This document shows, one piece after another, positions 3 through 27,800 of a stretch of DNA of 64,000 nt. Both the position numbers and the translations under genes were made by a program. Numbering within the stretch: position 1 is the stretch's first letter; each line of letters starts with the position of its first letter. The stretch spans positions 2,604,001-2,668,000 of the forward strand of contig NC_134036.1 of the NCBI RefSeq assembly GCF_964204645.1. Direction: 5' to 3'. The notes beneath the pieces were generated by a model, which was not told the origin of the DNA, made no database searches, and saw only the letters and a program-made list of their open reading frames with translations. Source of the DNA: Tubulanus polymorphus. Lineage: Eukaryota > Nemertea > Palaeonemertea > Tubulaniformes > Tubulanidae.

Positions 3-1571
3 GTCAAGGTCACCGTACAAACGAAGGTCACGTTGAGGTCACGACGTCATGAATCGCCGCTGGAGTTCATCGTCCAGAAATACCGATGCGGACTGCGGCG
101 AGGAGTCGACTCGCTAACAATCCGAAACGCCGAGTCCGTTTCCGAGTCCGGTTCGGCGATAGAAATTAACGTGACCTTGACCTCGCACTTGTACATGAAA
201 CCGCTCGTAATGGCGGCGAAGAACTATAGCACGATCGACGAAATCGAAATTTTGATGTCGACGAAACGCGCCGCGTTGCGATGCGTGTTTAACGCGACCC
301 CTAGCGGCGACGATTCTTCACCGACGGCTACATTTCTGCACATCACGCAGCGTGTGACGTCAGAAGTCGCCGCGTCGCCGACTAGAGTCACGTGTAGAAG
401 TCGCAAGTTCATTATCGGTACTAACTCGAAATTCAGTTTGTATTGGTCACCGTCGTCAAACGATGCGTCGTTTCTGGGCACGATTTGCTCCGTCGAGGCG
501 GACACCTGTTTAATGAAGGCGGCGCCACTGTACGGAAACCACACACGAATCACTGCGGCTTACACGGAATGCGCGACTACGCGTACCCGCAACAAAGTAC
601 TGGGGACAATAAACAGAGGAGGGAGCGGGAGTCACCACCAGGGGGCGGCCGCTGTTCAAATAATGGCGGAGGCACTTAACATCGAAATGAACCTGCACGA
701 AATAACGGGCGGGGCGACCTCTATCGTCGGTCTCTTGGCCGTTGTGGTCGTCCACGCCGTCGTGCCGGCGCTGAAATCCTCCACGCCCAGTTACATGTTC
801 CTCAACGTCTGCCTGGCGGCCATCTTGAGCAACGTACTGCAACTATCGAATCAATTTGTCGCCGGTAGAGACAGTGTCGTCTGCGATCTGTACGCTGCTG
901 GTAAACACTACGCCTGGCTGGCGATATTCGTCGCTTTAAACGCGATGGCCGTATCCACCGTACGCGAGCTCCAACACGCCGCTAGTGGCGACCTCCAGCG
1001 GCCAAGCGCGCGTACTCTCACCACGTTCAAGTACCTGGCTTACACTTGGTTCACCCCGCTGCCGATAGTCGGCGCCACGGCGTTTTTACATTTTCGCCCG
1101 ATCGTACCCACGCTTTACAAGAACATCTATAACATCGACGGCTTCTGCGAGCTCTCCACCGACGCGATCGCCATCTATACGCTGGGTATAGAAACAGGCG
1201 TTGTCTTATTGGTCAATCTAGCCCTATTCATATTCACGGTCTATCTAGTATTCGCTCATGGGGTCAGCCGGCCGTGGATTCGCAACCTGATATCAGTTCA
1301 TATACCAATGTTTGTCGTCATGTCGACATCTTGTCTGGTTATCTGGTTGACAACGGTGCTGATTGCCACAGGTAGTTCCGATAGTCTAATTCTGAAGATA
1401 TTTGTTATAATCGTCATAGGGTATTCTAGTGTAGTTACGACAGTAGCGTTCCTGTTGAACCCTCGAGTCGTCCGGTTGACCTACAAGCACGCGGTCGCCG
1501 CCTGGAGGCGTCGCGAGAAACTACGACAGCCGCAACAACGCCATCCTCCCTCTGCAGGGACTCGAACCTGA
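3..1571 (+). CDS. Adhesion/secretin-like seven-transmembrane receptor, 5' partial
   Basis: The reading frame is open from base 3 to the TGA at 1569-1571 with no intron, so the start and more of the extracellular part lie upstream of the window. Counting residues from base 33, seven hydrophobic segments lie near residues 225-247, 257-274, 294-311, 337-357, 386-411, 421-447 and 455-480. A Cys at the start of TM3 (CDLYAAGKHYAW) and one in extracellular loop 2 (GFCELS) match the usual receptor disulfide. The spacing and the HY/W pattern of TM3 resemble adhesion and secretin (class B) receptors. The preceding 200 residues are Thr/Ser-rich; I see no clear GPS cleavage box. The ligand is unknown. 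The last residues (after QPQQR) come from an inserted repeat, see 1543-1880. Family assignment is from the pattern only; another invertebrate-specific 7TM family is possible. Confidence 0.7.
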   Translation, partial: VKVTVQTKVTLRSRRHESPLEFIVQKYRCGLRRGVDSLTIRNAESVSESGSAIEINVTLTSHLYMKPLVMAAKNYSTIDEIEILMSTKRAALRCVFNATPSGDDSSPTATFLHITQRVTSEVAASPTRVTCRSRKFIIGTNSKFSLYWSPSSNDASFLGTICSVEADTCLMKAAPLYGNHTRITAAYTECATTRTRNKVLGTINRGGSGSHHQGAAAVQIMAEALNIEMNLHEITGGATSIVGLLAVVVVHAVVPALKSSTPSYMFLNVCLAAILSNVLQLSNQFVAGRDSVVCDLYAAGKHYAWLAIFVALNAMAVSTVRELQHAASGDLQRPSARTLTTFKYLAYTWFTPLPIVGATAFLHFRPIVPTLYKNIYNIDGFCELSTDAIAIYTLGIETGVVLLVNLALFIFTVYLVFAHGVSRPWIRNLISVHIPMFVVMSTSCLVIWLTTVLIATGSSDSLILKIFVIIVIGYSSVVTTVAFLLNPRVVRLTYKHAVAAWRRREKLRQPQQRHPPSAGTRT

Positions 1572-1880
1572 TGGCATCGCTACACTCAGCCACGGCACGA
1601 ACCCCTGCATCAGTAGACCGGGTGCGCATGTACATGCGCAGCTTTCCGAACGAAAACTGGCGGCACCAATCAGATTGCTCGTTGTATTATCGCTGAGGTA
1701 AATTTCAAGGAATAACTATAAATGGGAAAAACCCGGGCTAAAATAAAACGGGATTTCTGATTGGCTAAAAATCACATCATCTGAACTGCGCATGTATCTG
1801 CGCACACGGTCGATTATGGCAGGGTTTCGTGCCGTGGCAATCTCGATGCCATCAGGTTCGAATCCCTGCCGGGGGAGGAT
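1543..1880. mobile_element. Inverted-repeat element with tRNA-like heads, flanked by a target-site duplication
   Basis: The two ends are inverted copies of a tRNA-like sequence. Each has a perfect Pol III B-box type motif: GGTTCGAATCC on the + strand near 1854-1864 and GGTTCGAGTCC on the - strand near 1558-1568. Each also shares GTGCCGTGGC and GATGCCATCAG. The left end on the - strand has an A-box-like TGGCTGAGTG. The + arm can pair GGCAGGG with CCCTGCC as an acceptor-like stem. Between the arms is an AT-rich core with a short GCGCATGTA-type inverted pair. The outer ends are ATCCTCCC and GGGAGGAT. The element is flanked by GCAACAACGCC at 1532-1542 and 1881-1891, a direct repeat that marks an insertion. 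A second copy is at 26751-27070. Confidence 0.75.
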
Positions 1881-1910
1881 GCAACAACGCCAGAAACTAT
1901 CAACAACACC

Positions 1911-3732: not shown

Positions 3733-3851
3733 AAGACAATGTCCATACGAATAGGGAAAATATTGTCCATGAAACTGGTCTGAAAACTGTCCACTAATAT
3801 CGATGGTATTGTAATTCGAACCAACTTTGATAATTCATCGAATATTTTCAG

Positions 3852-24800: not shown

Positions 24801-27800
24801 AAACCAAAACTTGATTATAGTGCATGGTGGCACCAATAAAGGTTACTACTAACACCTTCAGAAAAGTCGATATAAAAGAAGTTGGTGTTACATGAAATGA
24901 CTATGCGTAAACCACTGATTGTGCTCCATCCCGAAAGCAATTTATGTTTCAATAATTCAGTTAGTAAACAGAAAATAACAACAAACCATGACAACGTTTG
25001 AAATTTCGTTTATTCTAAACTTGAAACCGAACATGCCACTAAAACACTGAATTCTCCACCTAGTGAGTGAAACACAAACTAAAAACAACACCAAACCTGA
25101 TGCAAAGCAACGAATTACCAAACTTACTTTGCCCGACTTTTTCCACGGTTGTTTGTTTTTCTTTTGCGACTTGTTGCGATTCAGCGTACCGGTACTGCCG
25201 GCCGTCGATGACGCATCATCTTTTGACAACTCCTCCTGATAGATGGCGCATTGGTAGGGACGAAAATGAAAAGGATATAACGCATATTGTATGAATTGGA
25301 TCGGGGAATTTAGTACGTACAAAGGTTCTTATCTCTCTGAAATTAAAGCCTCCTTTTTATTTGATCAATACAATCTGGCATTAAATTTCTAAGGCTAAGA
25401 GAATGGCAGACGGACAAGCATACCACTACCGAGAGTAAAACGAACTAAAAAACGTGTTTCAAAACCTCTAAACTGAAGAGAAAAGAAAATTTCCGGAGGG
25501 GGTCATTTTTACTACTCTCAACTACCACAGCTATACGATATTAATGGATGAATGAACGAAAAAGAAAGGGCAAAAATTGACTTCCAATGAAAATAAGAAT
25601 CCTAACTAACAACAGAAATTGACTTCCAATGAAAATAAAACACTACAAATGATTTACGTTCTGACAGTCATATGATGCTGAAGATGACATGAAAAGCATT
25701 AACCAACCCCATTAGTGTCCATGCACTTCAAGGAAAAATACCGTAAAAACTTGACATATATGTACGGACGAAACTAGGGGTCCAAGGATACAACGCCATG
25801 CCTACTCGGTGAAATGCTTCACTACCTGACATTTGCAATAATCAAGACAATTGATCAAAGCATCTTCAAGATTTTCCATGAAAACTTGTGCAAAAGGCCA
25901 CTTGCTAAAAAGTTGTTCACCAGTGGATAGTTGACATAGTGACAATGAAAAGTTCATGGTTAACTTATGGCATTTATCGGCCAGTTATCTTTTTACCAAC
26001 TTTTGAACAACTGCAGCTCCTGATTTTCTTCCGAAAAATGCTAATTCAGTGAATGCACAAATGAATGGACAGACAGCTGACAGATCAACGTACAAAAAGT
26101 GAATACAATGGCATAAATCCCCTTATAACATCAAAATCAATACCAAATTCATGAAAAAATCGTTACACATTGTTTTGATGATGTCGTAGTGGGATTTACG
26201 GAGACGCCCGTCTTATTGAAACCAACATTTCCACGGTTACCGAGACAAAACAACATGCATTTATCGACGAAATTGGATCAACTACAAACGTAGTTTTTCC
26301 GCACCTTTTCGTGATGAAAGGAGGAGGGTTAATATTGTTTTTTTTTTTTTTTTAATTTGCTACCATGACGATTACGATAATGAAAACAATACGAGAAAAC
26401 GAGCGGTTCTCCTACCTCGGTCGCGTGACTCGACGACGGCGATTTCAGGCGGAAATGTTTCTATAAATAAGCGCGCGACGCGAACGACGGGAGTGAACGA
26501 GAAAATAGAGAGAAAGGAAGAAAAATGTCGCTATTATTAACGATGAAATTAAACACAAACACAAACAGCGCACGACGACAACAACAATGATGCACATTTC
26601 AAAATTTAAATTATATTTTGGCGTTGCGTAAAAAAATGTCGGAGATCATCCTCGTTTATTCTCCATGATGAAATAACCCTTGTCCATGGTCGTTAAAAGT
26701 TCAATACAAATCGATAATAAACACATGCCTAAACTCAGTTCCATATTCATCATCCTCATCCAGCAGGGATTTGAACCTGATGGCATCGCTCGAACCTGAC
26801 TCAGCCGTAGCATGAAACCCTTCCCCACTAGACCCCAGTGTGCAGGTACATGCGCCGATTGCTTGTTGTGTAATTAGAGGCAAATTTCACCGATAAACTA
26901 GAACTGGAAAACCCAGGCTAAAATGAAATGGGATATCTGATTGGATAATGGTGGCCTCATCTAAGCTGTGCATGTAGCTGCACACTCGGTCTATAGTGTT
27001 GCTGGGTTCTGGGTTTCGTACCGTGGCGAGTCTTGGTGCCATCAGGTTCGAATCCTTGCTGGGGAAAATTATATTCATGAGCTAAAATGTGAATTCATTA
27101 CGTCTACGGACCCTTAACTCTTTACCAACAGCCATGCGAAGAGCCTGATCTTCTGAAATTTAATAGATGAAATCCGAACTCCTTTTAAAAGAAAACCATC
27201 CTCTATCCGAGCCAGTGTTAACATACGCGAACCCCTTTTGTCATAATCGTTGCTGCTCAGAATTCTAAAACCATGCCAACACCTCATGACATATTGGAAA
27301 AAAGAACCACTGTCAACATGCGTCCATGCATATAGGAAAAAATGAAAACACAGACGCAGAGTAAGATTCAATTGGAGAAAAGATGGCTACCTTCATAAAA
27401 TCCCCCTATGACATCATCCCTGTAGTAGTGCAAGATCCAGGGGCAGAGTTTTACAGGAGGAGAACAAACAAATGAAAAGGGCAAAAGGTGTTTCTGCCCC
27501 TCGTCTATGGGATAGTTTGCCGAAACACATTAGGGCTACATCATCTTTTGAGGTTATTAAATCATTGGTTAAACCATTTTTATTTAGAGAATATCTTTTT
27601 AACTAATTTTATATCTACTAATCACGTCAATTTTATCTATTATTGTAAAGAGCTTTGAGATTATTCTTAATGAAAAGAGCTTGATTATTACATTTACTCT
27701 GCCTGGATTTCCAGACCCCCCACAATGACAGGAGCAAGTCCGCCTTGTCCTACTGTCTGGATCCGCCCCTCAGCATATCACTGTATCAGCTTAATGATGT

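Follow-up and report, generated by a model that had tools for sequence, protein, structure and literature searches.

The palindromic element at 1542-1881 of the window, by which we mean the whole 64,000-nucleotide stretch of the Tubulanus polymorphus genome analysed here, is a short non-coding DNA transposon with a copy number of roughly two thousand. We estimate at about three in four the probability that it is a foldback MITE belonging to an AcademH-like DNA transposon with a helicase gene, and that a putative DUF6589 transposase acts on it in trans. The first-pass annotation had described an inverted dimer with a tRNA-like head at each end, and had proposed three possible origins: a SINE dimer, a foldback DNA element that captured tRNA sequence, or an uncommon terminal-repeat element. 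Support for a foldback or terminal-repeat DNA element comes from four features: target site duplications (TSDs) of 8-9 bp, terminal inverted repeats, the absence of a tail, and the existence of long coding elements that have the same ends.

The two-headed inverted architecture ascribed to the window element is confirmed (Table 1). Positions 1542-1881 are palindromic over most of their length: the outermost arms (1542-1579 and 1844-1881) are 92% complementary and the inner arms (1589-1641 and 1786-1838) 83%. Direct reading places a B-box-like motif in each arm, 16 bases from the terminus and pointing outward, so that the motifs at the two ends lie in opposite orientations. RNA folding, one of the checks suggested at the outset, gave -184.4 kcal/mol for 1542-1881 against -99.9 +/- 5.9 for 100 dinucleotide shuffles (z -14.4), and z -9.6 for the second window copy at 26751-27070. 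The AT-rich core was likewise borne out, GC content falling from about 0.61 at the element ends to 0.35 near the centre. Two inverted CCAATCAG motifs in this core (about 1666-1764), with CTATAAAT between them, look by eye like Pol II promoter motifs.

Table 1. Features of the two element copies in the window
Feature	Position	Strand	Basis or remark
Left TSD CAACAACGC	1533-1541		same 9-mer at 1882-1890
Probable foldback MITE, young 339-340 bp family	1542-1881		29 other fetched copies 97.6-98.2% identical
Left arm, terminal inverted repeat, L type	1542-1641	+	pairs with 1786-1881
Left-arm B-box-like motif GGTTCGAGTCC, outward	1558-1568	-	direct reading
AT-rich core, partly palindromic	1642-1785		28-nt arms 75% complementary
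Right arm, terminal inverted repeat, R type	1786-1881	-	arm pairing; L/R arm comparison
Right-arm B-box-like motif GGTTCGAATCC, outward	1855-1865	+	direct reading
Right TSD CAACAACGC	1882-1890		matches left TSD
Left TSD ATATTCAT, second copy	26743-26750		8 bp
Second copy, older, more diverged, same architecture	26751-27070		70-81% identical to 39 other scored genome copies
Left-arm B-box-like motif GGTTCAAATCC, second copy	26767-26777	-	direct reading
Right-arm B-box-like motif GGTTCGAATCC, second copy	27045-27055	+	direct reading
Right TSD ATATTCAT, second copy	27071-27078		8 bp, matches left

TSDs of 11 and 8 bp had been reported for the two window copies. The second figure stood, while the first copy, given element ends at 1542 and 1881, has a TSD of 9 bp: the count of 11 bp arose because one terminal element base per side was included. 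The insertion also falls within the last codons of a 512-aa open frame (33-1571), and the element provides the final nine codons and the stop; with the element and one TSD removed, the frame would terminate in QKLSTTPDQQK and not in HPPSAGTRT. By eye the frame is hydrophobic and receptor-like, and it has no Pfam match at E<=0.1.

That both window copies keep the same architecture held as well, down to the asymmetry between left and right arms. Compared arm by arm with the young-family consensus, the second copy reaches 78.5% identity on the left and 78.7% on the right, while identity between the two arms is 70.4% within the consensus and 60.8% within the second copy itself. At alignment columns where the consensus arms differ, the second copy's left arm agrees with the left at 26 and with the right at 13; its right arm agrees with the right at 40 and with the left at 18. 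Since the second copy keeps this L/R asymmetry, the two-armed form predates the split of the two copies.

With the whole element as query, the 267.8-Mb assembly from which the window comes gave 2,023 candidates, of which 40 were scored. All 40 align over positions 1-339 (one over 2-339) at 97-100% identity, and 35 of the 40 variable alignment columns among the 30 fetched copies vary in a single copy. These best 30 copies are full length and near identical, have the ends CATCCTCC...GGAGGATG, and carry no tail at the element end; their first and last nine bases hold two variable sites, with one deviating copy each. The youth of the family is thus a statement on its best-scoring copies. The census of copies, consensus and TSD lengths that had been recommended as a check gave perfect TSDs of 8-9 bp in 24 of the best 30 copies, 18 having 9 bp and 6 having 8 bp. 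Two more have a 9-bp TSD with one mismatch; in the remaining four, 4 to 7 of the 8 or 9 flanking bases agree, which is not a good TSD. A TSD can be counted one base longer wherever the adjoining target base is identical to the terminal base of the element. A 21-base end motif, allowed up to two mismatches, occurs at 3,806 places in the genome (1,948 + 1,858), against 0 and 0 for a genome-wide control with the reversed motif at the same threshold. Terminal inverted repeats, a nearly fixed TSD length, a size of 339 bp and a high copy number are all features of MITEs, and its length suggests that the element lacks coding capacity.

It had been argued that the two-headed form would be an artefact if most genome copies were single-headed SINEs, with the window copies arising from chance head-to-head insertions. 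Examination of contig C1 speaks against this. The first 100 end-motif places listed were all exact, and 82 of them lie on C1. These 82 include 22 outward-facing pairs, 18 of which measure 303-309 bp across the motifs, and no pair that faces inward. Of the 38 ends left unpaired on this contig, four are accounted for by an element that encloses a nested copy (L092, two ends), by L028 and by a copy whose alignment covers its full length; the loci of the remaining 34 (L056-L089) were retrieved. Alignments, complemented by inspection by eye for the degenerate loci L058, L060 and L072, revealed a second, opposite head in 30 of these 34 loci; in L068, L073, L085 and L087 none is visible in the stretch read. 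In total, 55 of the 59 C1 elements having at least one exact end motif are two-headed. Size variants with the same ends range from about 98 to 519 bp, and L066 is a palindrome of about 65 bp without a clear TSD. Perfect TSDs of at least 8 bp flank 11 of the 40 later-fetched loci (L056, L071, L077, L082, L084, L086, L090, L091, L092, L094 and, by eye, L064); many of the remaining loci look older. At L092 (G000:C1:4922600-4923360), one foldback element is nested in another, the outer of the two having the 8-bp TSD CGCTTGGC.

The 519-bp variant (L091) has about 180 extra interior bases, and this interior provided a route to long elements with the same ends. Used as a 191-base query, it occurs at 13 places in the genome, seven of them complete (95-100%). 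The partial places, which led to the long elements, comprise three with positions 63-191 only, one with 1-57 and two with 24-57; such parts lie 6.7 kb apart on C8 and 26.6 kb apart on C3. The C8 copy measures 7,170 bp (L096:487-7656) between the same ends as the MITE. Helicase frames lie on its plus strand (PF00270 at E 4.7e-8, PF00271 at E 1.2e-17); the minus strand has a convergent gene that encodes DUF6589 (E 1.8e-9), together with a C2H2/BED zinc finger match that is weak and falls below the cut-offs. A TAA falls inside the DUF6589 match, no single unspliced frame was seen spanning the putative transposase, and the flanks show no matching TSD (AAGTATTTC versus GGTCCCGCC). In the stretch read (L096/L097, G000:C8:3319400-3330100), the right end of this copy lies in a tandem duplication with a spacing of 2,727 bp, 1,631 bp of it being read at 99.9% identity. 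The C8 element also contains a third end-like piece (L096:5889-5955, 67 bp, 88%) with its terminus on the right, and an end-like inner piece is present in the C3 copy too (L099:148-216).

The C3 copy spans 27.1 kb between the same ends, CATCCTCCCTCTGC...GCAGAGGGAGGATG, with the 8-bp TSD GAATTTCA on both sides. It was read over its two end regions, about 19 kb apart: the blocks adjoining both ends share 92-97% identity with the C8 copy, and on the left there is a helicase frame (PF00270, E 6.7e-10). For a third long copy, on C2, one end and one helicase frame (PF00270, E 3.5e-16) are visible in a stretch (L100) that lies mostly beyond the element's end. Both MITE ends are therefore found in the C8 and C3 coding copies, and one end in the C2 copy. 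The helicase is of RecQ type: TIGR00614 matches partial frames at E 8.2e-13 and 3.2e-11, below the model's whole-protein cut-off, and the solved structures matched best by the helicase frames are WRN, BLM and RecQ.

Compared with the left end of the C3 copy, positions 1-150 of the MITE consensus are 94% identical; at the right end, positions 199-339 are 89% and positions 176-196 100% identical. As judged from these alignments, the MITE corresponds to the left ~150 bp and the right ~164 bp of the long elements, joined, and is apparently an internally deleted relative of them. With ends 89-94% identical to the MITE consensus, the C3 copy is a relative and not a direct parent. The suggested search for an autonomous partner thus led to long helicase-coding copies with the same ends, as candidate relatives of such a partner.

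A genome-wide search for DUF6589 gave seven matches, six of them over the cut-off (12 candidates), and none within the C3 copy or near the C2 copy. Of four DUF6589 loci fetched, C8 alone has the MITE ends, which are absent from L101, L102 and L103 in the stretch read. At the diverged locus L101 (DUF6589, E 1.4e-9), tblastx and frame analysis identified helicase-like frames adjoining on the opposite strand. A piggyBac-like frame (about 823-2757, by eye) lies beside or inside this DUF6589/helicase locus (G000:C10:6536500-6542500).

Other superfamilies could in principle have supplied the element. Mutator-like elements (MULEs) commonly have long terminal inverted repeats and a TSD of about 9 bp, and the genome contains 56 MULE transposase matches; the window element could then be a foldback MITE of a MULE, with the helicase elements being relatives by their ends only. 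We consider this very unlikely, as the window-element ends occur in none of the 10 MULE loci fetched from those 56 matches, whereas three helicase-encoding copies do carry them. A Merlin-type partner was also considered, and 43 candidate matches are listed in the genome. FB, Galileo, sea urchin TU and foldback MULEs are known foldback elements. The window element resembles such foldback elements and MITEs in being short, palindromic and abundant, and in forming a size series with the same ends; it differs in that the long copies here carry a helicase and not a P-type or MULE transposase.

The helicase gene and the TSD of about 9 bp make the AcademH lineage a good, if incomplete, match. Passages on AcademH describe an encoded helicase and a TSD of 9 or 10 bp (PMC10045372), and name PF00270 and PF00271 among its domains (PMC10799480). 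The elements studied here are like AcademH in their terminal inverted repeats, in the helicase gene of the long copies and in a TSD close to the 9 or 10 bp given in the AcademH passages of PMC10045372. They differ in that the MITE TSD is mostly 9 bp with a minority of 8, and that of the C3 long copy is 8 bp; furthermore, those passages make no mention of a B-box-like end motif such as that of the window element. Intact relatives of the long elements would be, or would have been, autonomous Academ transposons of the AcademH lineage or close to it, and the DUF6589 protein would be a putative DDD/E (Academ) transposase. A literature search linking DUF6589 with a transposon found no paper, and the terms Academ, DUF6589 and tRNA are absent from the text of PMC12730594. 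In the literature covered on MITEs and on inverted elements whose ends resemble a tRNA or carry Pol III signals, the Academ passages of PMC10294476 included, nothing was recognised as the window element.

The most likely mechanism for mobility of the MITE is as follows. The transposase of the long elements, presumably the DUF6589 protein, would bind the outer part of both MITE arms and, somehow helped by the helicase, would move the DNA lying between two such ends, short deletion derivatives included. Acting in trans, it would cut both ends and insert the element at staggered sites 8-9 bp apart. Deletions at the centre of the palindrome may then generate the shorter forms.

What remains distinctive is the B-box-like motif. 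The first-pass annotation had placed a Pol III B-box in a tRNA-like context at each end: the B-box is well supported, the wider tRNA likeness weakly. ARAGORN found no tRNA in the window, Rfam found none at gathering score, and the two Rfam matches to the element at E<=10 are not tRNAs. In the genome, a tRNA-Ser/Leu pattern identifies 32 places and an RF00005 search 60. When the two outward arms were aligned locally with five genomic tRNA-Ser/Leu stretches, each of the ten scores was reached by between 0 and 102 of 1000 shuffles; the best, of a tRNA-Leu with the left arm, was reached by none. In the two printed arm-tRNA alignments, the longest common run is the B-box. A possible A-box in the left arm, TGGCTGAGTGT, matches 7 of 8 specified positions and lies only 24 bases before the B-box, and the right arm offers 5 of 8; neither is above chance (equalled by 489 and 4810 of 5000 shuffles for the left and right arms, respectively). 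The suggested search for Pol III terminators revealed no T run after the B-box inside the element, so that a transcript would leave it. Overall, the option of captured tRNA sequence has the good B-box in its favour, and the ARAGORN, Rfam and A-box results and the outward course of transcription against it; a tRNA origin of the ends is weakly supported.

These observations also bear on the inverted SINE dimer, in which two tRNA-headed retroposons fused head to head would be copied by a LINE. This origin was rejected, and we regard it as extremely improbable. The window element does share a tRNA-type B-box with tRNA-derived SINEs and their dimers, at both ends, and its alignments with tRNA-Ser(AGA) were reached by only 5 (left arm) and 8 (right arm) of 1000 shuffles. 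However, the motifs point outward and the A-box match is at chance, which leaves no internal Pol III promoter reading inward from the 5' end, and a Pol III transcript would be out of the element within about 60 nt. The variable-length TSDs and the A-rich or repeat tail of SINEs were not found either: TSDs are nearly all 8-9 bp, the best 30 copies are full length, and the same ends occur on long DNA-transposon copies with coding capacity.

A further proposal, which could be compatible with the foldback MITE explanation, is that the terminal repeats carry a working Pol III/TFIIIC site, with TFIIIC binding or outward Pol III transcription serving mobility, targeting or chromatin protection. The right arm contains 13 bases of tRNA-Ser(AGA), CAGGTTCGAATCC, exactly, and the left arm contains them with one change. 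Moreover, conservation within the outer arms of diverged copies is highest at positions 13-38 (0.96 and 0.95; the adjoining part has 0.85 and 0.79), although the contrast shrinks when only aligned letters are counted (0.96 against 0.93 and 0.91). The 14 left arms of L031-L045 give 0.98 for the motif region against 0.89, or 0.94 over aligned letters. Most copies in this count were chosen by an exact 21-mer match in the motif region itself; the count left out the arms of L001-L030 and L046-L055 and the right arms of L031-L045, and excluded arms with 97% or more identity to the consensus (5 left, 7 right). The chance-level A-box and the failure of ARAGORN, and of Rfam at E<=10, to find a tRNA weigh against a functional Pol III site. 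In addition, the TTCGAA core of the motif is near-palindromic, and a site for a transposase protein dimer is therefore an equally good account of it. We thus view a working Pol III/TFIIIC site as unlikely. Under the foldback MITE explanation, the outward B-box-like motifs, also present in the terminal repeat of the long elements, are most simply part of the transposase binding region and not a working Pol III promoter.

An unusual-looking repeat can thus be settled as a DNA-transposon derivative, linked to long elements that encode a helicase and probably belong to the AcademH lineage. The explanation is an ordinary one; if anything about the feature is unusual, it is the B-box-like ends. There is a small chance that a helicase-type DNA transposon built a TFIIIC-binding B-box into its terminal repeats, in which case the transposase region and the host Pol III machinery would meet at both ends. 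If so, the MITE burst would have scattered several thousand outward B-boxes, potential extra TFIIIC or insulator sites, through the genome, and a functional motif would link DNA transposons with TFIIIC. Independently of this point, a single genome that combines a young burst of near-identical, two-ended copies with a size series and with long relatives offers a good natural system for studying the role of the helicase in transposition and the portion of the end that is required.
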